Shown: positions 255-41,017 of the stretch, in pieces
Numbering within the stretch: the first letter of the stretch is position 1
How the letters are laid out: every line of letters starts with the position of its first letter
NCBI GenBank assembly: GCA_030694975.1
Contig: JAUYTU010000022.1
Coordinates: forward strand, 1 to 64,000
Source of the DNA: Erysipelotrichaceae bacterium
Lineage (GTDB): Bacteria > Bacillota_I > Bacilli_A > Erysipelotrichales > Erysipelotrichaceae
Direction of reading: 5' to 3'
DNA length: 64,000 nucleotides
Program-made: the position numbers and the translations under genes
Notes under the pieces: generated by a model
Told to the model about the DNA's origin: nothing
The model's input: the letters and a program-made list of their open reading frames with translations, nothing else
The model's database searches: none

Positions 255-695
255 ATGCTGAGAGATTTACTAAACAAAGATACAATTGAACTTTCTGTAG
301 TTGCTGAAAATTGGAAAGAAGCAATCACTCGGGGAGGAGAATTGCTTATTAGAAAAGGTTTCATTAAAAAATCATATATTGACGAAATGATCGATTCCGT
401 AAATCAGTTAGGTCCATATATCGTTGTAATGCCAGGTGTAGCTTTTGCACATGCAAAACCGAGCGAATCCGTATTATGCAACGGATTAAGTCTTGTAAGA
501 TTTGAAACACCTGTCGAGTTTGGGAATGTAAAGAACGATCCTGTATCTGTTATGTTTACTATTGCGGCTGTCGACGATAAAAAGCATATGGACGAATTAC
601 AATCACTAGCAATGTTATTAATGCAAGATGAAAACATCGAAAAACTTATGAACTCGAGTAAAGAAGAAATCATTCAATTAATTGAAGGATACTAG
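255..695 (+). CDS. PTS EIIA component, ascorbate/mannitol (fructose-like) type
   Basis: This cytoplasmic phosphocarrier (146 aa) takes phosphate from HPr and passes it to the EIIB encoded next. The family fold is seen in the GPYIVVMPGVAFAHAKPS block, where His66 is the expected phosphorylation site, and in the C-terminal LAMLL helix region. Length is normal for a stand-alone EIIA. The start is supported by GGAGAG 7-8 bases upstream. It is the first gene of a PTS trio (EIIA, EIIB, EIIC). The EIIA domain at the end of the regulator at 11237-13213 is a relative, consistent with that regulator sensing this transporter. The sugar cannot be read from the sequence. Confidence 0.9.
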   Translation: MLRDLLNKDTIELSVVAENWKEAITRGGELLIRKGFIKKSYIDEMIDSVNQLGPYIVVMPGVAFAHAKPSESVLCNGLSLVRFETPVEFGNVKNDPVSVMFTIAAVDDKKHMDELQSLAMLLMQDENIEKLMNSSKEEIIQLIEGY

Positions 696-703
696 GAGGA
701 AGC

Positions 704-982
704 ATGAAAAGAATCAAAATTATTGCAGTTTGTGGGTTTGGTGTTGGAACAAGTTTAATTTTGAAAATGAACATCGAAAGTGCATTTAAGGCAAAAGGGT
801 ACAATGTAGACGTTGATTATATGGATGTTACAACTGCAAAAGGGGCTAACTGTGACATTATGTTCACATCAGCTGAACTATTCAATCAGCTTAAAGATGA
901 AAAGATTCCGGTAGTCGTTGTGGACAATTTTATGGATAAAAACGAAATTCTAGATAAGGGTTTAAAAGCACTAGGACTCTAG
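704..982 (+). CDS. PTS EIIB component, ascorbate (UlaB/SgaB) type
   Basis: A small soluble protein (92 aa) with the phosphocysteine loop CGFGVGTS near its N-terminus (Cys10). It accepts phosphate from EIIA and gives it to the sugar bound by EIIC. It lies 8 bases after EIIA with a clear AGGAGG. The fold and length fit the lactose/ascorbate EIIB class. The family transports L-ascorbate in enterics, but homologues occur with other substrates, and no ulaDEF or lactonase gene is present here. Confidence 0.9.
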   Translation: MKRIKIIAVCGFGVGTSLILKMNIESAFKAKGYNVDVDYMDVTTAKGANCDIMFTSAELFNQLKDEKIPVVVVDNFMDKNEILDKGLKALGL

Positions 983-1045
983 TCGTATTTAACCGATTAT
1001 TCGGTTCAAATAGAACATGTTATTTACAATATAAGGAGGAAAAAC

Positions 1046-2353
1046 ATGGCGATTATTAATTATTTAGCAAGCACATTCTTCAAACAACCACCAATTTTTC
1101 TTGGATTAGTCGCTTTAATTGGTTTGTTGGTACAAGGAAAAAGCTTCAGTGATTGTTTAAAAGGGACAGTCAAAACAATCATGGGGACAGCTATTTTATT
1201 TAAAGCTGTAAACTTACTTGCTGATTCGGTATCCCCATTATCGAACGCATTTGCTAAATTGTATCAGCTCCCGGTTGAAAACGTATTTGATCCAAATGCA
1301 GCATGGAATCTATTAGGAGAATATGGGACAACAATTGGTATTGTACTTGTAGCATCATTTGTGATCAATCTAATTGTTGCAAGATTTACGCCAATCAAGA
1401 ATATTTTCTTAACAGGTCACATTTATTTCTGGATGTCGTATTTATTTGTAGGAGCAGGTGTTCAAGCAGGATTGTCTGGAACAATGCTACTTGTGTTCGC
1501 AATTTTGTTCTTATCAATCTATATAATAGTAACTCCTGCTTTAATGAGACCTCTCGTTAAAAATCTTACTGGTCAGGACTCATTTACCATCGGCCATACC
1601 GCAACCATGTATTGTTTAATTGGTGCAGGTGTGGGCAGAATTTTCAAGGATAAATCTAAATCGACAGAAGATATGCAACTACCTAGCTATCTTGAGTTCT
1701 TGAGAGACACTACAATAACAACTGCGATTGTCATGACACTCATCTATGTTGTAACTGGCTTACTAATTGGAAATGAAAGCGCAACAGCGATTTTCGGTTC
1801 TGCAGGCGGCATCTATGCAATAGGTGGAGCTACTTATGATTTATTCACATTCTCCATTATGGCTGGTATTACCTTCGGTGGTAGCTTAGCTATCCTATTA
1901 ATGGGTGTACGCATGATGATCGGAGAAATCGTTCCGGCATTTAAAGGTATTTCAGACAAGTTAATTCCAAATGCTATTCCTGCATTAGACATCCCTATGG
2001 TATTCCCATATGCGCCTAATGCACTAATGATTGGGTTTGTCGTTTCGATGGTAACAAGTATTGCTACGATTGTAATTCTTGCATCAACCGGAAATCTGCA
2101 ATACGCTGTCATCCCTCTGGTCATAGCTTGCTTCTTTGACATCGCTCCAGGTGCAATCTTTGCAAACAAAGAAGGCGGACGTTTGGCGGTCGTTATTACA
2201 AGTGTTCTAAGTGGAGTGATTATGGTCTTCTTAATCATTGGATCAATAGCGCTATTTAAAGAAACGACAGCTGGTTTTAATCAACTTTATGGAGGTAACG
2301 GTTTCTCACTATGGAGTTTAATCTCGTACTGGTTTGGTCAACTCTTCGGTTAA
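1046..2353 (+). CDS. PTS EIIC permease, UlaA/SgaT family
   Basis: An integral membrane sugar channel of 435 aa with about ten or more hydrophobic segments, matching the usual UlaA length of about 430-460. The N-terminal block (FFKQPPIFLGLVALIGLLVQG) and the later SFTIGHTATMYCLIG and YAPNALMIGF stretches are characteristic of the SgaT/UlaA family. A strong AAGGAGG precedes the ATG. A stable terminator hairpin follows directly (2364-2401), separating the transporter genes from the enzymes downstream. The substrate is probably not ascorbate, given the enzymes encoded next. Confidence 0.92.
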   Translation: MAIINYLASTFFKQPPIFLGLVALIGLLVQGKSFSDCLKGTVKTIMGTAILFKAVNLLADSVSPLSNAFAKLYQLPVENVFDPNAAWNLLGEYGTTIGIVLVASFVINLIVARFTPIKNIFLTGHIYFWMSYLFVGAGVQAGLSGTMLLVFAILFLSIYIIVTPALMRPLVKNLTGQDSFTIGHTATMYCLIGAGVGRIFKDKSKSTEDMQLPSYLEFLRDTTITTAIVMTLIYVVTGLLIGNESATAIFGSAGGIYAIGGATYDLFTFSIMAGITFGGSLAILLMGVRMMIGEIVPAFKGISDKLIPNAIPALDIPMVFPYAPNALMIGFVVSMVTSIATIVILASTGNLQYAVIPLVIACFFDIAPGAIFANKEGGRLAVVITSVLSGVIMVFLIIGSIALFKETTAGFNQLYGGNGFSLWSLISYWFGQLFG

Positions 2354-2363
2354 ATGATTTAAA

Positions 2364-2403
2364 AGCTAGATATGCCGATGAATCGCATATCTAGCTGTTT
2401 TTA
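2364..2403 (+). terminator. Rho-independent terminator inside the sugar operon
   Basis: AGCTAGATATGC (2364-2375) pairs perfectly with GCATATCTAGCT (2385-2396), a 12-bp stem with a 9-nt loop, followed by GTTTTTAT. It sits between EIIC and the epimerase-DhaL gene, on the same strand and only 66 bases apart, so it probably attenuates read-through. Confidence 0.85.
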
Positions 2404-2418
2404 TAGAAAGGACTAAGT

Positions 2419-3903
2419 ATGAAATTTGGTATTCATTTATCGGTATTTACTGAAAACTGGGCGGATGATTTAGAGCAGTACATTTTGAAATCGAAGGAAA
2501 TTGGTTATGACGGGGTAGAAATTCCCCTTATGGATCCTTTTGGTTTGGACATAAAGAGACTAATAAAAATCTTGGAAGATAATCAGATTCTATGTACATG
2601 TGGTACCGGATTAAGTGACCAAACCGATATTTCAAGTGAAGATCTAGTTGTAAGAAGAAATGGTATAAACCATCTTAAAAAATGTATTGATATTTGTCAA
2701 CAACTAAGTTGTGATGTCTTAGGTGGTGTATTGTATTCACCTTGGGGTAAATTATATAGCAGAAAAGATTCAGAAGTAAGAATCGAATGTGCAATAGAGT
2801 GTTTGCAAGAGGTGGGATTATATGCTAAAGAAAAAGGCGTCATACTTGCTTTAGAATCAATCAATCGCTATGAAACTTATATGCTTAACACTATTCAAGA
2901 TGGACTAGATTTTATTAAAAGAGTGGGTAGTGAATATGTGAAAATTCACTTTGATACATATCATGGAAACATTGAAGAAAAGTCCATCCCCGATGCAATT
3001 CGAAGTGCCAAAGGGGAGATCTATCATGTTCATTTTAGTGAAAACGACAGAGGTATTCCTGGATCTGGATCAATTCAATGGACAAAAATCAAGGATGCTC
3101 TGATAGATATTAATTACGACCGCTGGGTAGTCTTGGAATGTTTTGTAAAACCTGATTGTGAAACAGGTACCGGCACAAATACATGGAGAAAAATCGAAGT
3201 TAATGCTGATAAGACGGCGCAAGAAGGACTAAAATTTATGAAAGATTTATTTGGATTAGACCACCAATTAACTAAAGAGCAATGCAAAGAGTTATTAAAA
3301 AGGATTTCACGCATGTTTGATGAAAGACAAGATGAACTTTCTATGTATGACTCTGTAATTGGTGATGGAGATCATGGAATAACAATGGCTAAAGGAGCAA
3401 AAGCAGCTATTGATAAAATCAATCAAACGGAGAATTTTGAAGCAAGTGAGTTATTCAAACTTTATGGCAAAACATTAATATCAACTTTAGGTGGAGCTAT
3501 CGGACCTTTATATGGATCAATCTTTATTGAGCTATCATTAGTAATGAAGAACAAGATAAATGTGGGTCTGGTCGAGTTTGCTACAGGATTTGATCAAGCA
3601 CTTAACAAGGTTATAGAGTTGGGTGGTGCAAAACCTGGAGATAAAACAATGGTTGACTCAATGGTTCCTACCGTGTACTCACTTTTACAGGCAGTCGCAG
3701 AGCAAAAAAATATTGTTCAAGCATTTGAGGAAGCTAAAGCAAATGCGATAATTGGAGCATATAATACAATTCCGATGATTGCAAAGCGTGGTAGATCTCG
3801 CTATTTGCAAGAAAAGGCTATCGGATATCAAGATGCTGGAGCGACTTCATTTGCTTATATGATTGAACAGATATACATATATCTATTAGAGGTATCTCAA
3901 TGA
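2419..3903 (+). CDS. Ketose 3-epimerase (TIM barrel) fused to DhaL-type kinase domain
   Basis: Two enzymes in one 494-aa chain. Residues 1-280 form a xylose-isomerase-like TIM barrel of the D-tagatose/D-psicose 3-epimerase family. The four metal/catalytic residues Glu146, Asp179, His205 and Glu240 have exactly the spacing of Glu152/Asp185/His211/Glu246 in D-tagatose 3-epimerase, and GIPGSG is present. Residues 285-494 are a DhaL (DAK2) nucleotide-binding domain with the Mg-nucleotide motif GDGDHG (Asp311, Asp316, Asp318), then GGAIGPLYG and GDKTMVD. The start follows AAAGGA. It overlaps dhaK by 4 bases. I infer that the fusion channels an epimerised ketose to phosphorylation with the DhaK protein encoded next. 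No DhaM phosphocarrier is seen, so the phosphate donor (ATP or PTS) is open. Confidence 0.88.
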   Translation: MKFGIHLSVFTENWADDLEQYILKSKEIGYDGVEIPLMDPFGLDIKRLIKILEDNQILCTCGTGLSDQTDISSEDLVVRRNGINHLKKCIDICQQLSCDVLGGVLYSPWGKLYSRKDSEVRIECAIECLQEVGLYAKEKGVILALESINRYETYMLNTIQDGLDFIKRVGSEYVKIHFDTYHGNIEEKSIPDAIRSAKGEIYHVHFSENDRGIPGSGSIQWTKIKDALIDINYDRWVVLECFVKPDCETGTGTNTWRKIEVNADKTAQEGLKFMKDLFGLDHQLTKEQCKELLKRISRMFDERQDELSMYDSVIGDGDHGITMAKGAKAAIDKINQTENFEASELFKLYGKTLISTLGGAIGPLYGSIFIELSLVMKNKINVGLVEFATGFDQALNKVIELGGAKPGDKTMVDSMVPTVYSLLQAVAEQKNIVQAFEEAKANAIIGAYNTIPMIAKRGRSRYLQEKAIGYQDAGATSFAYMIEQIYIYLLEVSQ

Positions 3904-4898
3904 AAGCAAAAAAATTCATTAATGAATCGACTAAAATTGTAGATGAAATGATTGAAGGTTTTATCAAAGCAAATCAAGAAATGATAATCAAAATACCAGA
4001 AACAGATGCAATTGCCAGAAAGTCAATTGATCGATCCAAAGTTCAAGTAATAATTGGAAATGGTTCTGGACATGAACCGGCTTGCATAGGATTTGTTGGT
4101 GAAAATATGTTAAGTGCCAATGCTTATGGATCTCTCTTCGCAGCACCTTCGGCGGACACGACATATGAGACAATTAAGTACTGCAATAGTGAAAAAGGTG
4201 TATGTGTGCTCATATCAAATCATGCCGGAGATGTGATTAACTCGAGAATGGCTATTGACATGGCTAAAGATGATAACATTGCTTGTGTAGGTGTAATCTT
4301 ATATGATGATATCGCTTCAGCCTCTAAAGAAGAAATATCAGAGCGAAGAGGTACAGTTGGAACACTGTTTAACTACAAAATTACAGGCGCATATGCAAAT
4401 GAAGGACATTCACTCGAAGAAGTGGTGTCGATGAGTATGAAAGTCAGGGACAATACAAGAACGATTGCGGTCGCATTAAAACCAGGAACTTCTCCAGTAA
4501 CAGGGTTGCCAATGTTTGAGATTTCTGATGATGAAATAGAGATAGGTATGGGCGTGCATGGTGAAGCAGCTGCACTGACTATGAGGATGGGGGCAAGCAA
4601 GGAAATCGCTAAAATTATGGTCAATATGCTTGTTGAAGACAAACCATATGTTTGTGGTGACGAACTGGCTGTAATTGTTAACGGGTGTGGCCAAACAACA
4701 ATCATGGAGCAACTATTATTCTTCAATGACGTTGAAACAGAACTTAAACTGAGGGGAATTGATGTCTTTAAACCTCAGATCGGAAGCTTTATTACAACTC
4801 AGGAAATGGGTGGAATCTCATTGTCCTTTTGTAAAATGGATGAAGATATGAAAAGGTGCTGGTCTGCTAAAACCGATGCTCCATACTTTAAGGCTTAA
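3900..4898 (+). CDS. dhaK: DhaK-type ketose kinase subunit
   Basis: The substrate-binding half of a dihydroxyacetone-kinase-type enzyme (332 aa, usual length). GNGSGHEP is at 53-60, the catalytic Asp111 lies in HAGDVIN, and His220 in GMGVHGE is the residue that binds the substrate carbonyl covalently in this family (His218 in E. coli DhaK). It overlaps the DhaL-containing gene by ATGA, so the two are translationally coupled and should form the active kinase. Relatives of this family phosphorylate dihydroxyacetone, erythrulose and other short ketoses. With an epimerase and aldolase on either side, a C1-phosphorylated ketose is a reasonable product, but this is inference. Confidence 0.9.
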   Translation: MKAKKFINESTKIVDEMIEGFIKANQEMIIKIPETDAIARKSIDRSKVQVIIGNGSGHEPACIGFVGENMLSANAYGSLFAAPSADTTYETIKYCNSEKGVCVLISNHAGDVINSRMAIDMAKDDNIACVGVILYDDIASASKEEISERRGTVGTLFNYKITGAYANEGHSLEEVVSMSMKVRDNTRTIAVALKPGTSPVTGLPMFEISDDEIEIGMGVHGEAAALTMRMGASKEIAKIMVNMLVEDKPYVCGDELAVIVNGCGQTTIMEQLLFFNDVETELKLRGIDVFKPQIGSFITTQEMGGISLSFCKMDEDMKRCWSAKTDAPYFKA

Positions 4899-4900
4899 TT

Positions 4901-5731
4901 GTGAAAGTATTTGAACTATTGGCAAAGGCTAGATTGGAAAAACGAGCGATCCTAGCCGTAAATGTAAGTAATATGGAGACAATCGCCGCTACTTTAGAAG
5001 TAGCAAACAAGGTTAAATATCCGATAATTGTACAAGTTTCACCCATCCAAATTGAAGCGCAGAAACTGTCATACAAGCTCTTTGTAGATTTAGTTCATTG
5101 CTTAGCTGCGCACTATCCGTGTGATTACATTATTCATTTAGACCATGCAACAACATTTGAGGAATGTAAAAACGCAGTAGATGCAGGCTTTGATTCAGTC
5201 ATGTACGACGGTTCTAAGTTGACTTATGAGGAAAACGTAATAAGTACAAGCAAAGTTGTGGACTATGCTCATTCCAGAAATGTAGCAGTCGAAGCTGAAC
5301 TTGGCAGAGTCGGAGGAGAAGAGGGCACTTATAGTACGAATCAAAATGCATACTTAACCTCGCTCGATGAAGTCATAGACTTTTGTTCAAAAGTAAATAT
5401 TGATTCTTTAGCAGTTGCAATAGGTAATGCACATGGATTTTATGGTAATGAACCAAAACTTAATTTTGTTCGACTAAAGGAGATTTCCGAACACACAGAT
5501 TTACCCCTTGTGCTTCATGGTGGTAGTGGAATAAGCGATGCAGATTTTAAAAAGGCAATTAGTTATGGCATAAGTAAGATTAACGTATTTACAGAACTAG
5601 ATAGTGCATTTGTAAAAGGCTTTGTTTCAAAATTCAATGAAGACCGCAAAGTATATATGATGTTTGCACAACGATGCGGAAGAGATGAAATGTCAAGAGT
5701 AATGTTTGAGAAAATGCAAGTCTGTAGATAA
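4901..5731 (+). CDS. Class II ketose-bisphosphate aldolase, GatY/KbaY-like
   Basis: A zinc-dependent aldolase of 276 aa. LDHA contains the catalytic Asp81 and zinc ligand His82. The other zinc ligands are His178 (GNAHGFYG) and His206 (LHGGSG). The EAELGRVGGEEG block is typical of the tagatose/fructose bisphosphate aldolase group. It starts with GTG two bases after the dhaK stop. It should cleave a phosphorylated ketose to dihydroxyacetone phosphate and an aldehyde. In this context the substrate may be a ketose 1-phosphate made by the DhaK/DhaL pair. Annotation as plain fructose-bisphosphate aldolase would miss the context. Confidence 0.88.
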   Translation: MKVFELLAKARLEKRAILAVNVSNMETIAATLEVANKVKYPIIVQVSPIQIEAQKLSYKLFVDLVHCLAAHYPCDYIIHLDHATTFEECKNAVDAGFDSVMYDGSKLTYEENVISTSKVVDYAHSRNVAVEAELGRVGGEEGTYSTNQNAYLTSLDEVIDFCSKVNIDSLAVAIGNAHGFYGNEPKLNFVRLKEISEHTDLPLVLHGGSGISDADFKKAISYGISKINVFTELDSAFVKGFVSKFNEDRKVYMMFAQRCGRDEMSRVMFEKMQVCR

Positions 5732-5748
5732 TTGCAAAGGAGCGCGAT

Positions 5749-7083
5749 ATGAAAATAGGATTATTGGCAGTTGGATTTCCAAATTTCAGGTATGATTATG
5801 CACAGAAGAATTTGGATATCAGTATCAAGAAATTGATATCCAGAGGTATTAGTTTGTTTGGTTGTGAGAAAGTTTTAATTGAGGAATCAATGATTTTTGA
5901 TGAAATCGAACGTCTAAAAAGTGAGCAAGTTGATGTTATGATCATCCAATGCGGAACATACTCTTTTGGGTCGGTCATCTATAAGATTATCGATGAGATG
6001 AAGGAGAAACCGCTCATTTTATGGGGATTTACAGAACCGAGAATTGAAGGTTTTAGAGGGTTACCACTAAACTCCTTGTGTGCGGTAAATATGTACAGCA
6101 GTTTTCTGAAGAGGCTTGAAAAGCCATTTAAATATTTCTATGGAGCAATTGATGATGAAAAGATGTATAACAATATTACTGACTATTTAAAGGCTCACCA
6201 ACTCAAGTTGAAGCTAAAAGGCACAAAGTTTTGTGTCATCGGTGGCCGTGTTCCAGGATTCTACTTATCAAGTGTTGATGAATTGCTTTTTAAAAGGGAA
6301 ATCGGAGTAGAAATTGTATATTACTCACTTGCAGAATTAATATATGATATGGAGAAAACGTCTGATGAAGATGTGAAGCTTGAAGTCGAAAATATCAAGA
6401 GAGTCTCTAAAGTAATAGAAAATTTGGATAAATACCTTAAAGATACAGCATCTATGATAACAGCTATTAAAAAATACAAGGTAGAAAATAAAATCGATGG
6501 ATTTGCCCTAAAGTGTTGGCCTGATATCCAGACAGTGAAAAAAATGAGTGCTTGTGGTGTTGTATCATTTCTAAACAACGACAATATTATGGTTTCTTGT
6601 GAAGGGGATATTACCAGTTTGTTGACCCAATTTATTCAACAGCAGATAACTAATGAACCATGTTTTTTAGCAGATTTAGTAAATTATAATGAGAATGGCT
6701 CATTTAAAACATGGCACTGCGGACCTGCGCCAGCCCGAATTGCTCGAGACCCAGAAGATGTCAAAATAACCATGCACTCAACCATGAAAGAATATGGTGT
6801 TGCGATGGAGTTTGGATTACCAATCAGCGAAGTGACAGTCATAAAGATAAGCGAACTTAATCAGAAATATAGAATGCTCATTATGAGTGGAAACAGTGTG
6901 CAGGAAGATCGAGATATGAGCGCTAATCAAAGTGATATCTTATTTAATGCATCCAAAGATGTAGTGCTAGATACAATTTTGAATAAGGGTTTTGAGCACC
7001 ATTTCTGCATTGTTTATAAGGACATTAAAAAGGAGTTACTGCAATTCTGTGATGTAATGAATATTGAAACAATTGTAATTTGA
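5749..7083 (+). CDS. L-fucose/arabinose isomerase-like sugar isomerase
   Basis: A 444-aa protein of the L-fucose isomerase fold group. FALKCWPDIQ, the CEGD motif, and WHCGPAP followed by MEFGL are the conserved core of short fucose-isomerase-like proteins that interconvert an aldose and a ketose at a divalent metal. It is a relative of the SQ isomerase encoded at 42288-43628, sharing length and the CWPD, CE.D, WHCG and MEFGL blocks. It is therefore likely to act on an unusual hexose rather than fucose itself. RBS AAGGAG precedes the ATG. It ends with TGA, 11 bases before the GH42 gene. Substrate unknown. Confidence 0.78.
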   Translation: MKIGLLAVGFPNFRYDYAQKNLDISIKKLISRGISLFGCEKVLIEESMIFDEIERLKSEQVDVMIIQCGTYSFGSVIYKIIDEMKEKPLILWGFTEPRIEGFRGLPLNSLCAVNMYSSFLKRLEKPFKYFYGAIDDEKMYNNITDYLKAHQLKLKLKGTKFCVIGGRVPGFYLSSVDELLFKREIGVEIVYYSLAELIYDMEKTSDEDVKLEVENIKRVSKVIENLDKYLKDTASMITAIKKYKVENKIDGFALKCWPDIQTVKKMSACGVVSFLNNDNIMVSCEGDITSLLTQFIQQQITNEPCFLADLVNYNENGSFKTWHCGPAPARIARDPEDVKITMHSTMKEYGVAMEFGLPISEVTVIKISELNQKYRMLIMSGNSVQEDRDMSANQSDILFNASKDVVLDTILNKGFEHHFCIVYKDIKKELLQFCDVMNIETIVI

Positions 7084-7094
7084 GGAGATAAAAA

Positions 7095-9275
7095 ATGAAA
7101 GAATTCATGTATGCAGCGGGTTACTATCCGTTAATGCAAAATCGAGAAGACTGGGTTAAAGATATTGAGACAATGAAGCAATGCGGTATAGAGTATATTC
7201 GTACAGCCGAACTTTTCAATGCTTGGGACAGAATTGAGCCGACTGAAAACAAGTTTGATTTTGGCTTCTTGGATGATTTTTTCGACTTATGTCACTTCTA
7301 TGGCATGAAAATCATTCTAGGAACTGGAACAGCATCACCTCCTTATTGGATTCATGAAAAGTACCCAGATGTTAATATACTAAATAATCATGGCGAACAA
7401 TATCCGAATCATGTTTCGTACTCGTGGGCATGTGTTGATCATCCGGGATTCATTAAGTCAGTTACAGAGTATGTTTCCAGATTAGTTAATCGCTATAAAG
7501 ATCACCCGGCACTATTTTGCTATCAGATTCATAATGAGATTTCTTTGCCATTTATGCCAATTCAAGGTGGAGACATTGACCTGTACTGTTATTGTGAAAA
7601 TTCGCAAGAGAAATTTCGTCATTGGCTTAAAAACAAATACAAGACGATAGAACTAGTCAATTATGCTTATCGCTGGGGAGCAACAAACACAGTTTATAGT
7701 GACTTCAGTCAAATAACCGCTCCGAAAACAAAGTGTACAAGTTGGGCTAGCGTGACTCGCTGGTTAGATTGGCGACTGTTCTGGATGGAGAATTTGGTTG
7801 ATTTTGTATCTTTTCAGAATCGGATCATAAAACAGTTTGATTCAAACCACTTAACATCTACAAATATATTCTTTCTAAAATCACAAGATCCTTTGGGAGT
7901 AATTACTGCACTTGATCAATTTGAAATGGCAAAAGCGGTTGATGTTATCGGGTATGACTTGTATCCAGGAAGTGGTAACAAACTTGAAAATTCACACGAA
8001 TTCTCTTCTATGTTTTTAAGTCTGGCTAAAAGCACAGCAAAGCCACTGGGTAAAGATTTCTGGTTAATGGAAACCGAAAGCGGACCAATTGGTGGGTGGG
8101 CATTGGGCCCAAGTCGAACTGTTGATGGAAATGATCTGTTCAGAAACGTTTTTGAAGCAATAGGACATGAAAGTCGAATGACTCTGTACCAAGGATTTAG
8201 ACAGTGGGATTTTCAACCCATTCACTGGGGCGGACTTGTTGATCTGAATGGAAATCATACAGATTTAACAAAAGCTGCGAAAAAAATTGGTGAAATCACG
8301 TCGAATTACAATCAGTATTTCGGTAACGCAAAAAACAATGATGCTAAAGTTGCTATTCTTATCTCGAAGGAAAATGCAATCATTCTTAATGGTATGGATC
8401 AAGACGCTATGTTATTAAAGGCATTAAAAGGCGCATATAGAATTTTTTGGGAAATGAACTTTGATGTTGAATTTGTTACTCCAGAACTAGTTAAAAGCGG
8501 ATATGCAAATCGATTTTCAGTGATTTTTGCTCCTTTTATGATACATGTTGATGAAGAATTAAGTCTCGGCATTGAAAAATATGTGTCACAAGGAGGTATC
8601 ATCATATCTTCTGCAAGATTGGGGTTTTTAGGAGATAGGGGCTGGTATAACCATACAGTTCCTGATCAGCGTTTGTCCTCGGTATTCGGTGTAAAAGTTA
8701 GCCAAGTATATGCAAATACAACTTGTAGGATTACTTATAAGAAAAAAACCTATGATGGTTACTGGCATAAAGAATTTCTAGAAACTGCAAAGGATACGAA
8801 AATATTAGCCAGGTATACAGATGATACTCCTGCAATAACGATAAACAGCTACAGTTCTGGAAAAGCAATTTATATTGGAACACATTTAGATGTCGCCTAT
8901 GTAGAAAATCAATCAATGCTGCTCTGGGACTTGTTGTCTGATATTCTAGCGCAGGAATCCATAGAACCATGTGTTGATGTTAACTATACAAACCGCCAGC
9001 ACAAAGAAATTAATGTAAATTTTCTTAGTGACGGGCATAAAGATATGTTGCTTATAACAAATTATACAAAAAAGAACCAAGAGAACTTTTTCAAAAACGG
9101 TAAAAAACTTGTAGAGATCAAATTGAAAGAGAAGAATTATGTAAAGGCATTCGATTATTTGGGCGATACATTGGTTGAAGTTAGAAATCAACTGTGTGAT
9201 TGCACCATATCTTTAGAAATCAGAAAAAATGAAGTAAAAATCATTCGACTTCAAAAGGAGTTGCGCGATGAGTAA
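7095..9275 (+). CDS. GH42 family beta-galactosidase-like glycosidase
   Basis: A 726-aa protein, slightly longer than the usual 650-690. Residues 1-400 are a TIM barrel with the acid/base Glu148 in QIHNE and the probable nucleophile Glu326 in LMETESG. Residues 400-570 match the GH42 trimerisation (amidotransferase-like) domain, and a beta-rich C-terminus follows. There is no signal peptide, so it acts in the cytoplasm on an imported, possibly phosphorylated, glycoside. It overlaps the phosphatase gene by 8 bases. GH42 enzymes release beta-galactose or alpha-L-arabinose residues. Here it would free the sugar that enters the isomerase/epimerase route. Confidence 0.85.
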   Translation: MKEFMYAAGYYPLMQNREDWVKDIETMKQCGIEYIRTAELFNAWDRIEPTENKFDFGFLDDFFDLCHFYGMKIILGTGTASPPYWIHEKYPDVNILNNHGEQYPNHVSYSWACVDHPGFIKSVTEYVSRLVNRYKDHPALFCYQIHNEISLPFMPIQGGDIDLYCYCENSQEKFRHWLKNKYKTIELVNYAYRWGATNTVYSDFSQITAPKTKCTSWASVTRWLDWRLFWMENLVDFVSFQNRIIKQFDSNHLTSTNIFFLKSQDPLGVITALDQFEMAKAVDVIGYDLYPGSGNKLENSHEFSSMFLSLAKSTAKPLGKDFWLMETESGPIGGWALGPSRTVDGNDLFRNVFEAIGHESRMTLYQGFRQWDFQPIHWGGLVDLNGNHTDLTKAAKKIGEITSNYNQYFGNAKNNDAKVAILISKENAIILNGMDQDAMLLKALKGAYRIFWEMNFDVEFVTPELVKSGYANRFSVIFAPFMIHVDEELSLGIEKYVSQGGIIISSARLGFLGDRGWYNHTVPDQRLSSVFGVKVSQVYANTTCRITYKKKTYDGYWHKEFLETAKDTKILARYTDDTPAITINSYSSGKAIYIGTHLDVAYVENQSMLLWDLLSDILAQESIEPCVDVNYTNRQHKEINVNFLSDGHKDMLLITNYTKKNQENFFKNGKKLVEIKLKEKNYVKAFDYLGDTLVEVRNQLCDCTISLEIRKNEVKIIRLQKELRDE

Positions 9276-10086
9276 AATAAATGATATACAATGCTTTCTG
9301 CTTGATATGGATGGTACATTTTACTTAGGGAATAGGCTAATTGAGGGTTCGCTTGAGTTTGTTAATTTCTTGAAAAGTGAAGGGAAGAGATTTATTTTTC
9401 TGACAAACAACTCCTCTAAGTCAAGTGTGGATTATGTTGAGAAACTTCAGAAGTTTGAATGCTCAGTAGGTAAAGATGATGTTTTCACTTCTGGTGAAGC
9501 AACGACTATTTACTTAAAACAGATTAAAAAAAATGCCAAAGTATTTCTTCTTGGAACAAAAGCGTTAGAAGACGAGTTTACTTCTCAAGGATTTGAGTTA
9601 ATCAATAGTATGGATTCTATCCCTGATTTCGTAGTACTTGGATTTGATCAAACTCTAACCTATAAGAAACTTTGGTTAGCATGTGATTTTATCCGTGAAG
9701 GAATCCCATACATCGCTACGCACCCCGATCTGAATTGTCCTCTTGAAGGTGGAAGGTATATGCCAGACACAGGATCAATGATTGAGTTCGTCAAAGCTTC
9801 TACAGGGAAAGAACCTTATGTTGTCGGGAAGCCTAATTCTTTTATAATTGAAGCTATTTGCATGAAGTATGGACTGCTAAAAGAGAATCTAGCAATGGTA
9901 GGTGATCGACTATATACAGATATTCAAACAGGTATTAATGCCAACATAACATCTATTTTGGTATTGTCCGGTGAAACAAAGTCGAAAGATTACAAACTAA
10001 GCGGAATTAAAGCAGATTATGTTTTCGATTCATTGAGAGAACTGCATCAAGCAATTTTGGAGGATAGAACAAATGAATCCGTTTAA
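9268..10086 (+). CDS. HAD-IIA family sugar phosphatase (NagD-like)
   Basis: A 272-aa haloacid-dehalogenase-superfamily hydrolase. LLDMDGT holds the nucleophile and acid aspartates, TNNSS is motif II, GKPN is the Lys motif and GDRLYTD is motif IV. The cap region size fits class IIA (NagD/AraL/PGP). Such enzymes dephosphorylate sugar phosphates of 2-6 carbons. It is embedded in the operon (overlaps on both sides), so it may remove the PTS-derived phosphate or drain a toxic phosphorylated intermediate. RBS AAGGAG lies inside the preceding gene. Confidence 0.88.
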   Translation: MSKINDIQCFLLDMDGTFYLGNRLIEGSLEFVNFLKSEGKRFIFLTNNSSKSSVDYVEKLQKFECSVGKDDVFTSGEATTIYLKQIKKNAKVFLLGTKALEDEFTSQGFELINSMDSIPDFVVLGFDQTLTYKKLWLACDFIREGIPYIATHPDLNCPLEGGRYMPDTGSMIEFVKASTGKEPYVVGKPNSFIIEAICMKYGLLKENLAMVGDRLYTDIQTGINANITSILVLSGETKSKDYKLSGIKADYVFDSLRELHQAILEDRTNESV

Positions 10087-11224
10087 CTTTTTTCTAGATA
10101 CGAAAATTGATTTCGGTAGTGGTTCTTTGAATCACGTTATCGGTTATATAAAGGAGTTTGGTGCAAGCGTAGTTCTGCTTGTATTGGATAGAAACGTATT
10201 GAAACTCGGATTAGTGGATGAACTGCTTGAGACTTTGTCGAAAGAACAGGTTAACTATCATATTTACGATAATATTGATCCTAACCCAAGGTTGATTCAT
10301 GTTGATATTGGTACCACTCAGTTTAAAGAACATGGATGCAATCTCGTAGTGGCGATTGGTGGAGGCAGTACAATTGATGTTGCAAAAGGAATATGCGTAG
10401 TTGCGAAAAATGGGGGAAAATGTTTCGACTATCTTGATGGTAGAAAAGAAAAAAAGCGAGCAATTTATGATTCTATTCCACTTATTGCTGTACCTACGAC
10501 TGCGGGGACAGGGTCGGAAGTAACCATGTATTCGGTTATTCTTGATAACGATCTCGTAAAAGACTCGATTACCTCAACTCATATATATCCATCAGTTGCT
10601 GTAATAGATCCATTATTAATGAAAAAAATTCCTAGGGAAACAGTCATTTATACTGGTTTAGATGCGTTTGCTCATGCACTCGAAGCCTATACATCGAATA
10701 TATCCAATGCTTTGTGTGATGTTTTTTCACTGGAAGCACTAAGACTTATATTCGAATGGTTACCCATTGCCGTCAACGAAAATACACAGCAATCTAAAGA
10801 AAAGATGGCATTTGCTTCTACGCTAGCAGGTGTAGCAATGAGCCATCAAGCAGCCAATCTTCCGCATGCACTTGGTTGTGCATTAGGTGCAAACTATGAT
10901 TTGTCACATGGACTTGCGGTTGCATCATTAATTCTACCAATGGTTAAGTATAATTCTAGTATTTGCGCCCAAGAGTTTGAAGATATAGTAAACTATATAA
11001 GTCCGACCAAACAAAGAAATAGAGCTGATTCTGCAAAGCAATTAACTGTTATGATAGAAGAACTTTTCAAAAATGTTGGATTTGATTATAAAATTGGTAA
11101 ATACCCAAGTGAAGAGATTTTAAGTAAAATGGTTCACGATGCAAGCATTCACGGTTGTTTGCTCTGTAACAAAAGGATTCCAAGCGAACAAGATATTAAA
11201 GATATGTTTTTGTCTATATTGTAA
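10073..11224 (+). CDS. Iron-containing alcohol dehydrogenase
   Basis: A 383-aa group III NAD(P)-dependent alcohol dehydrogenase. The dinucleotide motif GGGSTIDVAKG is present, as are PTTAGTGSE and the metal-binding Asp and His residues in TGLDAFAHALEAY and PHALGCALGANYDLSHG. It overlaps the phosphatase gene by 14 bases. In fucose and rhamnose catabolism a FucO-type member reduces lactaldehyde. Here it is well placed to reduce the aldehyde released by the aldolase, which would make a diol or related alcohol under fermentative conditions. The exact substrate is inferred only. Confidence 0.9.
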   Translation: MNPFNFFLDTKIDFGSGSLNHVIGYIKEFGASVVLLVLDRNVLKLGLVDELLETLSKEQVNYHIYDNIDPNPRLIHVDIGTTQFKEHGCNLVVAIGGGSTIDVAKGICVVAKNGGKCFDYLDGRKEKKRAIYDSIPLIAVPTTAGTGSEVTMYSVILDNDLVKDSITSTHIYPSVAVIDPLLMKKIPRETVIYTGLDAFAHALEAYTSNISNALCDVFSLEALRLIFEWLPIAVNENTQQSKEKMAFASTLAGVAMSHQAANLPHALGCALGANYDLSHGLAVASLILPMVKYNSSICAQEFEDIVNYISPTKQRNRADSAKQLTVMIEELFKNVGFDYKIGKYPSEEILSKMVHDASIHGCLLCNKRIPSEQDIKDMFLSIL

Positions 11225-11236
11225 AGGAGGGATAAC

Positions 11237-13213
11237 ATGAAGCAACAACTCAGTCGAAGATTGTTACAGATTCTCGAGACGATTCTAAATTACGATTTTG
11301 CTGACAAGGATGAGTTGTTACAAACTTTTAGCATTTCAAAACGTACACTTTATTACGATCTATCCAAACTTAATAATGCATTACTAGAAATGAATCTAGG
11401 TATGATACAGTCAGGTGCTATCGGTTTCTTTATTGAGAAAAAGAACAAAGACAAGATACGTGACACTTTCAATTTAGCGTATAAAGGAAATTATATTAAT
11501 CGAAATCATGAAAGGCTTCACATTATTCTTATTCATCTTTTAAAAAATGATTCAATACTTACTATTGAAAAACTTGAGGAATTATTGTCAGTTAGTAGGA
11601 ATACTGTAGTAAATGACTTGAAGAATGTTCGCGGGTTTTTAGATGATTTTGATTTAATCTTAGAATCACAAAATGGTTATGTTATAACTGGAAGCGAAAT
11701 TAATCGTAGAGCACTGTTTTCTCACGTATTTAACGATTATAACTACTTATTTGATTCGATAGATTTAGACCCTCAACTACTTAAATTGTTTGATCAAGTC
11801 ATCGATAATGAGTACAATGCACGTTATCTAACAACGTTCTACCGCGGCTTTTACCATGGTGTTCCCATAAATACATCAAGCATCAACATGTATATTCGCG
11901 ATTGTGATGTAGCAGTAACTGCTAAAGAGAAGTTACAATGTTTGACTGATACAGTCATATGCAAGGATGAGATTGCTTTTGTATCATTAATGATTTTAGA
12001 CAATCTAGAAATTAGGTCCACATTCATAAACGTTGAACCTAAAAAGTATGAACAGTGGAACCAAATTGTAATGTGCATAATTAAAGAGTTTGAAAGACTA
12101 AGTTGTATATTTATTGAGCAAAAAGTTGACTTGGCAAATAAGATAATTCATCATCTAATTCCATTTATTGTTAAAAGCCGCCTTGGTATTTACTATTGTA
12201 ATGTCATTAAGGACAGTATTAAGAGTAAGTATTCAGTAATCTATTCTCTTACACGTAGAGCTGTTTTGGCATATAAGGATCAATTTGACGGTTTTTTGTT
12301 TAATGATGATATGCTCTCATATATAGTTCTATATTTTGGTGCATTACTCCACGATACATCTGATTTTAATCGAAAACCCAAACTGCTAATCGCGTGTAAC
12401 AAAGGATATGCTACATCTCAGCTGTTGGCATTACAAATTGCGGAATTATTTCCGAATAGTGAAATTGTGGGTGTTGTCAGGTCTGCTGAAATATGTAGAT
12501 ATGCGGGGCACTATGATTTTGTAATTACGAATGAAAAAGAATATTCTGGCGAAAATATAATAAACGTCGAATCAATACTGACTGAGTATGACAAGAATGA
12601 ATTACTATTTAGAATCTCAAATTTACAGATAAACATACGCTCAAAACAAGTCGTTGTAAACCACATTATAGAAAAGATTGAAGAAAACGCGATTATTCAA
12701 AACAAGCCTAAGTTACTTTCTGATATTGAATTTGTTTTAAATAATATTGATCTTAAAAATAATAAATTTATGCCAGCACTAACTCAGATAATATCGATGG
12801 ATGTTGTACAATTTGAAATAAATGAGTGTAACTGGAAACAAGCAATCCAATTGGGTTCAATGCCGCTATTAGCAAACAATTCAATCAACAACAGTTATGT
12901 AGAAGATATGATTTCAACTGTTGAACGGATAGGGCCATATTTCATAATTGGTGATGAATTTGCACTTGCCCATGCATCACCTGATGCTGGAGTAAATCGA
13001 TTAGCTATTTCTGTTACAGTTTTCAAAAACCCTGTACACGTTTCAGATAGGCAGTTCAGGGTACTATTAATCCTCACACCCATAGACAAGAAGAGTCATA
13101 TTAATATTATTGCCGACATCAATCAAATAATTGCGGATGATGATAAATACGCAAAAATAAAAGGTGTACAATCAAAAGAAGAATTGTATGAACTTTTAAA
13201 AAAGCGAAGCTAG
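11237..13213 (+). CDS. PTS-regulated transcriptional activator (MtlR/LicR type: HTH-PRD-EIIB-EIIA)
   Basis: A 658-aa regulator. Two N-terminal helix-turn-helix segments (about 18-45 and 105-130, with SISKRTLYYDL and SVSRNTVVNDL) bind DNA. The middle holds a divergent PRD region. Residues 380-460 form an EIIB-like domain with the CNKGYATSQ loop, and 510-658 an EIIA domain with the phospho-His in FALAHASP. Phosphorylation by HPr and the operon's own PTS is expected to set activity according to sugar flux. It lies last in the operon, 12 bases after the dehydrogenase with AAGGAGG, giving autoregulation. A LicR-type activator is more likely than a BglG antiterminator because the N-terminus is HTH, not CAT. 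Confidence 0.87.
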   Translation: MKQQLSRRLLQILETILNYDFADKDELLQTFSISKRTLYYDLSKLNNALLEMNLGMIQSGAIGFFIEKKNKDKIRDTFNLAYKGNYINRNHERLHIILIHLLKNDSILTIEKLEELLSVSRNTVVNDLKNVRGFLDDFDLILESQNGYVITGSEINRRALFSHVFNDYNYLFDSIDLDPQLLKLFDQVIDNEYNARYLTTFYRGFYHGVPINTSSINMYIRDCDVAVTAKEKLQCLTDTVICKDEIAFVSLMILDNLEIRSTFINVEPKKYEQWNQIVMCIIKEFERLSCIFIEQKVDLANKIIHHLIPFIVKSRLGIYYCNVIKDSIKSKYSVIYSLTRRAVLAYKDQFDGFLFNDDMLSYIVLYFGALLHDTSDFNRKPKLLIACNKGYATSQLLALQIAELFPNSEIVGVVRSAEICRYAGHYDFVITNEKEYSGENIINVESILTEYDKNELLFRISNLQINIRSKQVVVNHIIEKIEENAIIQNKPKLLSDIEFVLNNIDLKNNKFMPALTQIISMDVVQFEINECNWKQAIQLGSMPLLANNSINNSYVEDMISTVERIGPYFIIGDEFALAHASPDAGVNRLAISVTVFKNPVHVSDRQFRVLLILTPIDKKSHINIIADINQIIADDDKYAKIKGVQSKEELYELLKKRS

Positions 13214-25686: not shown

Positions 25687-26094
25687 ATGAAAAAAAGAGG
25701 AATTCTAAACAGTGATATCGCGAAAGTTCTGGTTGATTTGGGTCATACAGATAAAATCTGTATAGCCGATGCCGGATTACCGGTTCCCAATGGAGTTAAG
25801 AAAATTGATTTAGCATTGAAAAAAGGTTTGCCTTCTTTCATCGATACGCTTAAAACTGTTTTGGATGATATGTGGATAGAGAAGATCTATCTTGCAAATG
25901 AAATTAAGGAACATAACGGAAAAGTTCTTGGTGAAATTTCGGAATTAGTTGGGGAAGTATCGACAACATACATCTCACATGAAGATTTTAAGGAACTTAC
26001 CAAAGATTGCAAAGTTGTTATTCGAACAGGCGAAATGACTCCCTATGCGAATGTAATTCTACAGTCAAATGTGAACTTCTCCGACGAGGTATAA
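25687..26094 (+). CDS. rbsD: D-ribose pyranase RbsD
   Basis: A 135-aa protein that interconverts pyranose and furanose forms of ribose and related sugars so the kinase can use them. [22 protein letters not shown], the ADAGLPVP motif and the end [12 protein letters not shown] are family hallmarks. The ATG at 25687 matches the family start; a GTG 24 bases upstream (25663) would add non-family residues. It lies between the regulator and the ABC ATPase gene. Confidence 0.93.
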
Positions 26095-26096
26095 GC

Positions 26097-27578
26097 ATGC
26101 GCTTGGAAATGAAGAACATAAACAAATTATTCGGGCCGGTTCAAGTTCTTTACGATGTTAATTTTGAGGTTGACGCCAACTCTATTCATGCGCTGGTCGG
26201 TGAAAATGGTGCTGGCAAATCAACGTTAGTCAAGATCCTGACGGGTATATATACGATGAACAGCGGTGAAATTCGCATTAATGGCGAACCGGTAAAAATT
26301 CACTCCATCATCGACAGCGAACACCACAAAATTGCTATTGTTAATCAGGAATTAGCTGTTTTTGGTGAGATGACGGTATTGGAAAATTTGTTTATTGGTA
26401 AGGAAAAAACATTAGCTGCCGGTATTATCAACAGTAAAGAACAAAAAGAAATAGCGACAGAGATATTTACCCGACTTGGCATTAACTTAGATTTCAATAT
26501 GAGAGTTAAAGAGCTTTCAGTGGGCATGCAACAAATGCTTGAAATTGGTAAATCGTTGGTAAATGACGCAGAACTCATTATCATGGACGAACCCACATCG
26601 GCATTAACGGATCGTGAAATCGATATGTTGTTTAAAGTAATCAGAAAACTGAAAGAAAATGGTAAATCAGTCATATACATTTCTCACAGAATGAAAGAAA
26701 TCTTTGAGATATGTGACGCGATCACAGTTTTGCGCGATGGTAAATTTGTTAAAAGAAGCAATACGAAAGATATTACATTTGAAGAAATCATCCGAAGCAT
26801 GGTCGGGTATGAGTTGGGTAACTTATTCCCCGATAAACCCCAAGTGGCCGTAGGGAAGAAGCTTTTGGAAGTAAAAAATCTGTCACACCATGGAAAATTC
26901 AATAATATATCCTTTGAATTAAGCGAAGGTGAAATCATTGGATTCGCAGGTCTTATGGGATCTGGCAGAACCGAAATTATGAACGCCCTGTTTGGCATTG
27001 ATAAAGTTGATTCCGGCGATGTCATCTTGTTTGGCAATAAAGAACACATTAAGCAACCCTTACAAGCCAAGCGGATGAAAATCGGCTATGTTACTGAGAA
27101 TCGAAAAGAAGAAGGTTTGTTTTTAGATTTTTCAATCAATGAAAATGTTATGTTAAACAATCTTGAACAGCTCAGTAAAAACTTTGTTATTAACTTTAAG
27201 AAATCAAAGAATACGACATTGGATTACGCCGAAAAAGTGCGATTGCGTTATCAAAGTATCGATCAAACAGCGAGCGAACTAAGTGGTGGTAACCAACAAA
27301 AAGTGGTTTTATCAAAGTGGTTAGCGAATGATCCAAGAATTCTCATCTTAGATGAACCTACGCGCGGTATTGATGTAAATGCAAAAAAGCAAATTTACGA
27401 AATGATATTTGAACTCAAGAAAATTGGCATTGGTATCATCGTAGTATCCTCCGAACTAGTTGAATTATTAGGCATAGTGGATAGAATCTATGTAATACAC
27501 GAAGGTGAAATGGCGGCAGAATTAGTTAACGACAATCTCACGGATGAGGTCGTCATGAAGCACATGATGGGAGGATAA
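26097..27578 (+). CDS. rbsA: Ribose/allose-type sugar ABC transporter ATPase (RbsA/AlsA)
   Basis: A tandem ABC ATPase of about 493 aa powering sugar import. Domain 1 has Walker A GENGAGKST, signature LSVGMQQ and Walker B LIIMDEPT. Domain 2 has a degenerate Walker A (GLMGSGRTE), LSGGNQQK and LILDEPT, the asymmetry normal for the RbsA family. I chose ATG 26097, two bases after the rbsD stop, with GAGG upstream; an in-frame ATG at 26007 lies inside rbsD. It works with the permease and binding protein encoded next. Confidence 0.93.
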   Translation: MRLEMKNINKLFGPVQVLYDVNFEVDANSIHALVGENGAGKSTLVKILTGIYTMNSGEIRINGEPVKIHSIIDSEHHKIAIVNQELAVFGEMTVLENLFIGKEKTLAAGIINSKEQKEIATEIFTRLGINLDFNMRVKELSVGMQQMLEIGKSLVNDAELIIMDEPTSALTDREIDMLFKVIRKLKENGKSVIYISHRMKEIFEICDAITVLRDGKFVKRSNTKDITFEEIIRSMVGYELGNLFPDKPQVAVGKKLLEVKNLSHHGKFNNISFELSEGEIIGFAGLMGSGRTEIMNALFGIDKVDSGDVILFGNKEHIKQPLQAKRMKIGYVTENRKEEGLFLDFSINENVMLNNLEQLSKNFVINFKKSKNTTLDYAEKVRLRYQSIDQTASELSGGNQQKVVLSKWLANDPRILILDEPTRGIDVNAKKQIYEMIFELKKIGIGIIVVSSELVELLGIVDRIYVIHEGEMAAELVNDNLTDEVVMKHMMGG

Positions 27579-36558: not shown

Positions 36559-37236
36559 ATGAGTGAAATGATCGATAACCTTCGGGCTAAAAACCCTCAC
36601 ATCCATATCCATTCCGTCTTTGATCCTGAGTTTCAACGTTTCGGGGAAGTTCTGGGTGTTTCCGAATTTATTCCCTTGATTGATTATTTAGATAAGCATA
36701 CGTCTGTTCCAGTTTCTGGTAATGAATATGTGGCCCATGTCGAGGAGGTAGGTAATCTTGTTTCTTCCAGTACCGTCATCCACGACACCTTTGGACTAGT
36801 ACCGCTGGAATACGGCTACGTCAACGGCAATAACTCAAAGCTCAATGCGCTTGAGTTTCATAAAAGCTCTGAAATCAATGTGTGTGTCACACCGCTGGTA
36901 CTGTTACTTGCCGGTATAAATGATATTGAAAGTTCCGCGATTCACTCCTCAAAGGTGAGCGCATTCTATATTCCTGAAAACACCGCAATCGAAGTCTATT
37001 CAACTACTTTGCACTTCTCTCCGTGTAAGGTAGTTGATTCAGGATTTAAGTGCGCGGTTATCTTACCGTATGGTACCAACATGGAATTCATCCGTGCCAA
37101 AGGAAACCAAGGCAAGTTCAGCGAATTTCTATTCAAAACAAATAAATGGTTATTAAACCACCCGGAAAACACTCGAATGGTTGAACTACATGCGACCAAT
37201 GCGATTTTAGGGGAAAACATCGAGATCTACTATTAA
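36559..37236 (+). CDS. DUF4867 family protein of the sulfoquinovose operon
   Basis: 225 aa, resembling the DUF4867 family (N-terminal IHIHSVFDPEFQRFGEVL, middle EVGNLVSSSTVIHDTFGLVPLEYGYVNGNN, and LALLAGI-like core). There is no signal peptide or membrane helix. From memory such a protein also occurs in other sulfoglycolysis clusters, but I know of no assigned reaction. It is first in the operon, with a cre site covering the start. The RBS (AAGGA) is unusually far, about 16 bases; an ATG three codons on (36568) is an alternative. It ends by touching the GH31 start. Confidence 0.6.
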   Translation: MSEMIDNLRAKNPHIHIHSVFDPEFQRFGEVLGVSEFIPLIDYLDKHTSVPVSGNEYVAHVEEVGNLVSSSTVIHDTFGLVPLEYGYVNGNNSKLNALEFHKSSEINVCVTPLVLLLAGINDIESSAIHSSKVSAFYIPENTAIEVYSTTLHFSPCKVVDSGFKCAVILPYGTNMEFIRAKGNQGKFSEFLFKTNKWLLNHPENTRMVELHATNAILGENIEIYY

Positions 37237-40971: not shown

Positions 40972-41017
40972 TTACTGTGGTATTAATTAACATTAATATA
41001 AAAAAAGGGAGGATTCT

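Follow-up and report, generated by a model that had tools for sequence, protein, structure and literature searches.

A Conserved Ten-Gene Operon of Erysipelotrichaceae and Clostridia: A Candidate Sugar Pathway with a Divergent DhaK/DhaL Kinase

Organization of the Operon

The DNA analysed here, referred to as the window, comprises the first 64,000 nucleotides of a contig (JAUYTU010000022.1, C11; assembly GCA_030694975.1) belonging to the 2.19 Mb genome of an Erysipelotrichaceae bacterium, and starts at the first base of that contig. Between positions 255 and 13213 it carries an operon in which the genes of a phosphotransferase system (PTS) are followed by a ketose 3-epimerase fused to DhaL, the kinase subunit DhaK, a class II aldolase, an aldose-ketose isomerase, a GH42 glycosidase, a phosphatase of the haloacid dehalogenase (HAD) type, an iron-containing alcohol dehydrogenase (Fe-ADH) and a regulator. 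Ten of these families recur in an identical order, at 40-65% identity, in at least four genomes, and the most probable reading of the unit is that of a catabolic operon for an aldose, in which DhaK/DhaL would serve as a ketose 1-kinase feeding a monophosphate-cleaving class II aldolase.

All the genes from 255 to 13213 share one orientation, are intact and are separated by intergenic gaps of -14 to +65 bp. Proteins were assigned to families by comparing Pfam and NCBIfam profile scores with the corresponding cut-offs. The genes that an initial annotation had grouped in one operon are all present, intact and co-oriented, at the positions it gave; the enzymes indeed occupy 2419-11224, the extent then proposed for the unit, to which the PTS genes and the regulator, lying outside these coordinates, have to be added. 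The features are as follows.

255..695, + strand: PTS component EIIA of the ascorbate/mannitol type (PF00359, 119 bits; NF007694, 98.7 bits, below the cut-off)
704..982, + strand: PTS component EIIB (PF02302; 51-60% identity to its orthologues)
1046..2353, + strand: PTS component EIIC of the Ula/GAT type (PF03611, 342 bits; NF006919 for ascorbate-type IIC, 400 bits, cut-off 380; 58-63% identity to its orthologues)
2364..2396, + strand: hairpin of 11 bp with a loop of 11, followed by a T run (read from the sequence)
2419-3903, + strand: fusion of a TIM-barrel 3-epimerase and DhaL
2419..3246, + strand: ketose 3-epimerase domain, residues 1-276 of the fusion (NF051856 for D-psicose 3-epimerase, 237 bits, cut-off 300)
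3286..3876, + strand: DhaL domain, residues 290-486 of the fusion (TIGR02365, 177 bits, cut-off 138)
3900..4898, + strand: DhaK of a divergent clade (PF02733, 316 bits)
4901..5731, + strand: class II aldolase devoid of the DPR motif (PF01116, 291 bits)
5749..7083, + strand: aldose-ketose isomerase of the AraA/FucI fold, SqvD/SftI branch (NF048012, 255 bits, cut-off 700)
7095..9275, + strand: GH42-family glycosidase (PF02449, 240 bits; PF08532, 81 bits)
9268..10086, + strand: HAD-IIA phosphatase, AraL/phosphoglycolate-phosphatase-like (PF13344, PF13242; TIGR01460, 158 bits, cut-off 100)
10073..11224, + strand: Fe-ADH, lactaldehyde-reductase-like (PF00465, 163 bits; TIGR02638, 256 bits, below the cut-off of 523)
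11237..13213, + strand: PRD-type transcriptional regulator with a C-terminal EIIA domain (NF053736, 51 bits, and NF007358, 55.5 bits, both below the cut-off)

The hairpin, located between the IIC gene and the enzyme genes, is a possible attenuator. A promoter scan was uninformative (53 found, 55 expected). Ascorbate catabolism was discarded as a function of the unit, which contains neither UlaG nor UlaD.

Conservation of the Operon across Genomes

The conserved order runs IIB, IIC, 3-epimerase, DhaL, DhaK, aldolase, isomerase, GH42, HAD phosphatase and Fe-ADH, and is found in the window and in three loci of Clostridia, designated L077 (Clostridiales bacterium GPF-1), L191 and L192. A scan of the genome contigs with the single sequence of the window isomerase revealed no relatives and a family alignment was needed; the L077 isomerase, 42% identical to that of the window, was among the matches listed in the family-alignment scan across genomes. 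A subsequent search of 249 genomes of the order of L077 added the operons L191 and L192, so that the genome search for the gene set suggested at the outset did recover it in all three loci. Over nearly their full length, the proteins are 45-65% (L192) and 39-63% (L077) identical to those of the window. The genes flanking the operon in the window, at the L077/L191 locus and in L192 all differ and are unrelated. Because the same order recurs within such unrelated flanks, the ten-gene set is a real functional unit and not a chance neighbourhood, and the idea of a single pathway put forward in the initial annotation is borne out by the order kept in at least four genomes. The operon occurs in one of seven genomes of the window genus and in three of the 249 genomes of the Clostridia order. 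Since the genome samples of the window class and of the Clostridia have no genome in common, the two groups of operons apparently belong to different classes.

Depending on the lineage, some parts of the operon are differently arranged. The gene for the regulator with its EIIA domain opens the operon in the Clostridia and closes it in the window, and the window possesses a separate EIIA gene besides the EIIA of the regulator, whereas in the Clostridia the EIIA domain is fused to the regulator. In the L192 copy, the PTS IIB gene occurs as a tandem duplicate (L192 3736-4375). The 3-epimerase and DhaL, fused in the window as previously noticed, are encoded by separate adjacent genes in the three Clostridia operons, and no second fusion of this kind was found in 395 genomes of the window's class. 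The fusion is thus a feature of this genome, read as having arisen in the window lineage because both genes are separate in all three Clostridia, and it was dismissed as a key feature of the pathway in view of these split genes.

The conservation also bears on the idea that the operon joins, by shared regulation, two unrelated sets of genes, a galactoside PTS with its GH42 glycosidase on the one hand and ketose-salvage genes on the other. GH42 enzymes are mostly beta-galactosidases, and sugars phosphorylated by a PTS are no obvious feed for the isomerase. However, ten families keep one order, with genes mostly overlapping or nearly abutting, in at least four genomes that apparently represent two classes and whose flanks differ, and the GH42 itself is exclusive to the operon, no close relatives having been found outside it among 321 Clostridia genomes, where the next best match is 30% identical. 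A composite of this kind accordingly appears highly improbable.

The Isomerase

The protein introduced as fucose-isomerase-like does possess the AraA/FucI fold, and yet it belongs to the SqvD/SftI branch and is not a strict fucose isomerase. Against the Pfam C-domain of fucose isomerase it scores only 32 bits, and its best curated match is SftI, a sulfoquinovose isomerase, whose cut-off of 700 bits is reached neither by the operon isomerase nor by the window's own isomerase from a sulfoquinovose context (403 bits). An AlphaFold2 model of the protein (pLDDT 92.7) retrieved L-arabinose isomerases as the best Protein Data Bank (PDB) matches in Foldseek (E about 1e-28, TM 0.86), followed by fucose and D-arabinose isomerases (FucI, PDB code 1fui, E 1.6e-20), whereas a sequence search of the PDB gave nothing at E 0.01. 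Residues E285, D309, H323 and H418 are invariant in 75 aligned sequences and, judging from their spacing and the fold, would correspond to the metal ligands of AraA-type enzymes.

The four operon isomerases differ at 20 positions from 28 enzymes of sulfoquinovose contexts, e.g., at position 106, where the Arg of the RLRLNS motif, found in 27 of the 28, is replaced by Pro in all four. Because of these 20 positions, P106 included, the operon enzyme is probably not a sulfoquinovose isomerase, and is better viewed as an SqvD-branch aldose isomerase that looks competent. Its nearest counterparts among 295 genomes of the window's order are only 26-29% identical, and the relatives found there beside sulfo-type genes are of the sulfoquinovose type. 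Relatives in plasmid records are only 20-29% identical and occur in other contexts (Zymomonas, Chlorohelix). The nearest isomerases of the other sampled Clostridia (L179-L188) reside in other clusters, none of which combines DhaK with an epimerase; L185 associates genes of the sulfoglycolytic transketolase and transaldolase types (sulfo-TK/TAL) with DhaK/DhaL and a dehydrogenase.

The DhaK/DhaL Kinase and the 3-Epimerase

The 3-epimerase matches the D-tagatose 3-epimerase of PDB code 8xix (E 5e-55) and retains the E/D/H/E metal-site motifs LESINRYE, FDTYH, VHF and VLECF, which places it in the D-tagatose/D-psicose 3-epimerase family, with a score (237 bits) below the equivalog cut-off (300). 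DhaL exceeds its curated cut-off and exhibits the Asp triad motif IGDGDHG.

DhaK, aligned to its E. coli and L. lactis homologues, retains His56, Asp109 and His218. Within a set of 23 DhaKs compared for their motifs, the four operon copies display NGSGHEP, VLISNHAGDVIN and GMGVHGEA, and all four contain the pocket motif ISNHAGD in place of the canonical KNY[TS]GD, which corresponds, in E. coli numbering, to the replacement of K104 by S and of Y106 by H (S106 and H108 of the window protein). The motif-matched DhaKs with KNY[TS]GD also show GGSGHEP together with GxGIHGEP, the latter wherever the third motif could be located, and a further class, YGNYAGD, is made of the DhaKs encoded beside RpiB. 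The operon DhaK remains below the cut-off of the DhaK equivalog TIGR02363 (312 bits versus 406), and a tree built from 24 DhaKs sets the operon copies apart (96/98), with the single long-branch row L049 next to them.

DhaK/DhaL is the sole kinase of the conserved unit. Two further DhaK/DhaL pairs occur in the genome, on contigs C8 and C37, the latter also encoding DhaM; a second ordinary dihydroxyacetone kinase in the operon would therefore be redundant. The pair on C8 (L071 6240-9282) consists of a YGNYAGD-type DhaK and DhaL accompanied by triosephosphate isomerase-like and RpiB genes, a module that likely functions as a tetrulose (erythrulose) kinase.

Sister clusters occur in the same family as the window genome (L066 5187-12377, L067 6323-13154 and L068 4155-11086) and contain a 3-epimerase, a class II aldolase, a fructose-type PTS, RpiB, DhaK and DhaL. 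L066 further encodes a true AraA (660 bits, cut-off 622), and L067 and L068 a cupin-like protein of 304-319 aa. To our knowledge, their pathway has not been described.

The known substrates of the DhaK family are trioses and tetruloses, and the operon pair could in this respect act downstream as a triokinase-like enzyme of dihydroxyacetone, glyceraldehyde or a tetrulose set free by the pathway, leaving the PTS as the sole agent of sugar phosphorylation and a PTS-derived phosphosugar to the aldolase. In L066-L068, DhaK/DhaL adjoin RpiB as tetrulose kinases do, and the fructose-type PTS could yield a ketose 1-phosphate. The operon differs in that its isomerase must precede the aldolase, a PTS being unable to phosphorylate a ketose made in the cell, and in that the unit lacks RpiB, the DhaK pocket is unlike both the KNYTGD and the YGNYAGD types, and the aldolase is devoid of the DPR motif of bisphosphate enzymes. 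We consider such a downstream role unlikely.

The Aldolase and the Accessory Enzymes

The aldolase conserves D82, H83, H180, H208, the GG[ST]G motif and the N230 region (KbaY numbering), and thereby the Zn-binding His triad, catalytic Asp and C1-phosphate loop of the PF01116 class II aldolases of dihydroxyacetone phosphate (DHAP). The DPR motif located near the C-terminus of GatY and KbaY from E. coli and of the aldolase FBA (PDB code 3q94) is absent from all four operon aldolases, as well as from the ketose-1-phosphate aldolase YdjI and from ten SqiA enzymes of sulfoquinovose clusters. The operon aldolases form a clade of their own (99/96), apart from the SqiA clade (100/100). From the loss of DPR, the predicted reaction is the cleavage of a ketose 1-monophosphate into DHAP and an unphosphorylated aldehyde, which would thereby be available as a substrate for the Fe-ADH.

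The lack of the DPR arginine, as in SqiA, and the SqvD/SftI affiliation of the isomerase also recall a sulfosugar route resembling the second sulfoglycolytic Embden-Meyerhof-Parnas pathway (sulfo-EMP2), which proceeds through SqvD, the C1 kinase SqiK, the class II aldolase SqiA and a reductase (PMC9594981, PMC12890257). In such a route, DhaK/DhaL would stand in for SqiK in degrading sulfoquinovose, sulfofucose or a different 6-sulfo-sugar, and the Fe-ADH would convert sulfolactaldehyde to 2,3-dihydroxypropane-1-sulfonate; a sulfo-TK cluster does reside in the same window. However, the conserved unit comprises no GH31 sulfoquinovosidase, no DUF4867 protein (SqvB) and no sulfonate exporter, the isomerases lack the Arg of the sulfoquinovose-context enzymes, the aldolases are separate from SqiA, the 3-epimerase and the GH42 have no role in known sulfoglycolysis, and the genome already possesses its sulfo-TK route. 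This route seems even less likely than a triokinase-like role of the kinase.

The GH42 motifs holding the catalytic acid/base and nucleophile Glu residues, IHNE and ETESGP, are kept in the four operon copies. In the -1 subsite, all four show a Gln (FRxWDFQP[IL]H or WREWDFQP[IL]H) where canonical enzymes have the Glu of ExxH, present in PDB code 9ta3 as aligned and, once the alignment had been adjusted manually, in 6y2k. The phosphatase, initially taken for a NagD-type enzyme, is of the HAD-IIA type, with AraL/phosphoglycolate-phosphatase-like models, not NagD, as the closest.

Proposed Pathway

The substrate of the operon would probably enter the cell as a glycoside through the Ula-type PTS, the GH42 would free the aldose, and the HAD protein would at some point strip the phosphate added by the PTS. 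The isomerase would turn the aldose into a ketose, whose C3 would be inverted by the TIM-barrel enzyme. DhaK would then bind the keto group covalently, as dihydroxyacetone kinases do, and with DhaL would phosphorylate the adjacent CH2OH, giving a ketose 1-phosphate. The class II aldolase would split this into DHAP and an unphosphorylated aldehyde, to be reduced to the alcohol by the Fe-dehydrogenase. All the substrates, and the order of the steps, are those that we infer.

An intracellular C1 kinase is required because an isomerase and a 3-epimerase precede the DHAP aldolase, and DhaK/DhaL is the candidate because the PTS acts only on import and no other kinase is found in the unit; the chemistry called for is that of DhaK, which phosphorylates the CH2OH adjacent to the keto group it binds. 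Aldolases of PF01116 make the 3S configuration, so that aldoses giving 3R ketoses, of the L-fucose, L-rhamnose, D-arabinose and D-allose types, would need a 3-epimerase; we regard this as a lead, not a result. Our guess is a sugar whose C6 cannot be phosphorylated, for instance a 6-deoxyhexose or a pentose, supplied as a glycoside. The enzyme combination also recurs elsewhere, in the independent L066 cluster, where a true AraA stands together with a 3-epimerase, a class II aldolase, DhaK/DhaL and RpiB. That DhaK/DhaL replaces the sugar kinase, as the initial annotation had it, agrees with its place as the only kinase of the unit and with the pocket altered in all four copies, and the proposed cleavage of a ketose 1-phosphate followed by reduction of the aldehyde agrees with the missing DPR Arg; the sequence itself does not show the site of phosphorylation, the substrate or the reduced product. 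The chances are about even that the operon serves a rare aldose or glycoside pathway not described before, in which a neofunctionalised DhaK/DhaL acts on a C5/C6 ketose after isomerisation and 3-epimerisation, ahead of a ketose-1-monophosphate aldolase.

Several points weigh against this proposal. The sugar brought in by a PTS is normally phosphorylated, which is handled here only by assuming the HAD phosphatase, and a system that phosphorylates upon import is hard to fit with an isomerase expected to use a free aldose. The changed pocket residues indicate that the operon DhaK differs, not what it binds, and the hemiaminal and catalytic roles of His56, Asp109, His218 and the pocket residues are assumed here, as is the role of the DPR arginine, presumably the holder of the C6 phosphate in bisphosphate aldolases. 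With its altered -1 subsite and its close relatives found only in the operon, the GH42 is no guide to the glycoside. The Fe-ADH is the least conserved member of the operon (40-47% identity), and the unit is rare (at least four genomes found), so that little co-variation can be used.

If the proposal is true, activity on larger ketoses would extend the chemistry of the covalent-binding DhaK family and would add to the FGGY and Pfk/PfkB families a third type of kinase for sugar pathways built on an isomerase and an aldolase. NGSGHEP and ISNHAGD in DhaK, together with the loss of DPR in the aldolase, offer signatures for re-annotating genes labelled "dihydroxyacetone kinase" and "tagatose-bisphosphate aldolase", and the conserved ten-gene unit makes the question testable.

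Other Gene Clusters of the Window and Its Relatives

A complete-looking cluster for oxidative sulfo-TK sulfoglycolysis (36559-50575) comprises DUF4867 (SqvB), a YihQ-like GH31 sulfoquinovosidase, an ABC importer, an SqvD-type isomerase, a split transketolase, an RpiB-like SqwI, an exporter, a SauS-like acylating sulfoacetaldehyde dehydrogenase and succinyl-CoA-ligase-like subunits. Several genomes of the genus and family carry counterparts of its isomerase, transketolase and binding-protein genes with 82-98% identity. The cluster matches the variant of Chu et al. 2023, in the form in which PMC11659671 cites it. A second YihQ-like GH31 (52064-54010; 737 bits, cut-off 553) lies 1.5 kb past it.

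An apparent fusion of an AlsE-like D-allulose-6-phosphate 3-epimerase and an AlsK-like allose kinase (29562-31106), the second epimerase-kinase fusion of the window, is located near a monosaccharide ABC ATPase (26007-27578). A D-allose pathway was rejected as a reading of the operon, the window having this separate allose-type cluster. Between 14296 and 18215, FdrA (above its cut-off) and a carbamate kinase enclose an unnamed 466-aa protein, an arrangement resembling the clusters of fdrA, ylbE and carbamate kinase that serve in the use of purine or allantoin nitrogen.

Among the relatives, L069 (1196-5172) and L070 (275-5072) contain an SqvD-branch isomerase along with proteins that, as judged by eye, resemble a transaldolase, a reductase of the beta-hydroxyacid dehydrogenase type and a PTS IIC; these loci have the look of a sulfo-TAL pathway relative linked to a PTS. 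L180 and L182-L184 combine an SqvD-branch isomerase, a class II aldolase, an ABC importer and a SIS-domain-like protein (partly by eye), with sulfatase-like genes nearby in L182 and L183.

Comparison with Known Systems

No published pathway joining DhaK/DhaL with a ketose 3-epimerase, an isomerase and an aldolase was found in the open-licence literature searched, in line with the initial annotation, which was aware of none. The nearest described systems are sulfo-EMP2 and the catabolism of L-fucose and L-rhamnose, to neither of which the operon belongs by its kinase family and gene content. Like sulfo-EMP2, it has an isomerase of the FucI fold that belongs to the same branch, a class II aldolase without DPR and a putative aldehyde reductase, and phosphorylation is predicted to take place at C1. 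It differs by DhaK/DhaL instead of the PfkA-type SqiK, by an additional 3-epimerase, by a PTS and GH42 instead of GH31 and SqvB, by the absence of a sulfonate exporter, by an isomerase without the conserved Arg and by the separate clade of its aldolase; the unit contains no PfkA-family kinase, DUF4867 or GH31, whereas the gene set of sulfo-EMP2 also includes SqvB or YihR and a sulfoquinovosidase. Fucose and rhamnose catabolism (FucI/FucK/FucA/FucO and RhaA/RhaB/RhaD) similarly relies on an isomerase, a C1 kinase, a DHAP aldolase and an Fe-dependent lactaldehyde reductase, but its kinases belong to the FGGY family and its aldolases to the FucA/RhaD family, as opposed to DhaK and the FBA-II type in the operon, which adds a 3-epimerase, a PTS and GH42.

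The other systems resemble the operon in part. The ydj cluster of E. coli possesses a PF01116 ketose-1-monophosphate aldolase devoid of DPR (YdjI), but lacks an isomerase and a 3-epimerase, has another transport system and uses a kinase of another family, YdjH being a PfkB-family sugar kinase. DhaKLM and the tetrulose kinases LerK/DerK share the DhaK and DhaL folds and the catalytic residues, whereas the operon shows altered pocket motifs in its four copies and has neither DhaM nor RpiB. The L066-type cluster likewise groups an AraA-fold isomerase, a 3-epimerase, a class II aldolase, DhaK, DhaL and a PTS; it differs by its true AraA, RpiB and fructose-type PTS, by a DhaK of another clade and by the absence of GH42, HAD phosphatase and Fe-ADH. 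The operon is thus real, conserved and undescribed, and is kin to the isomerase-kinase-aldolase-reductase pathways already known.

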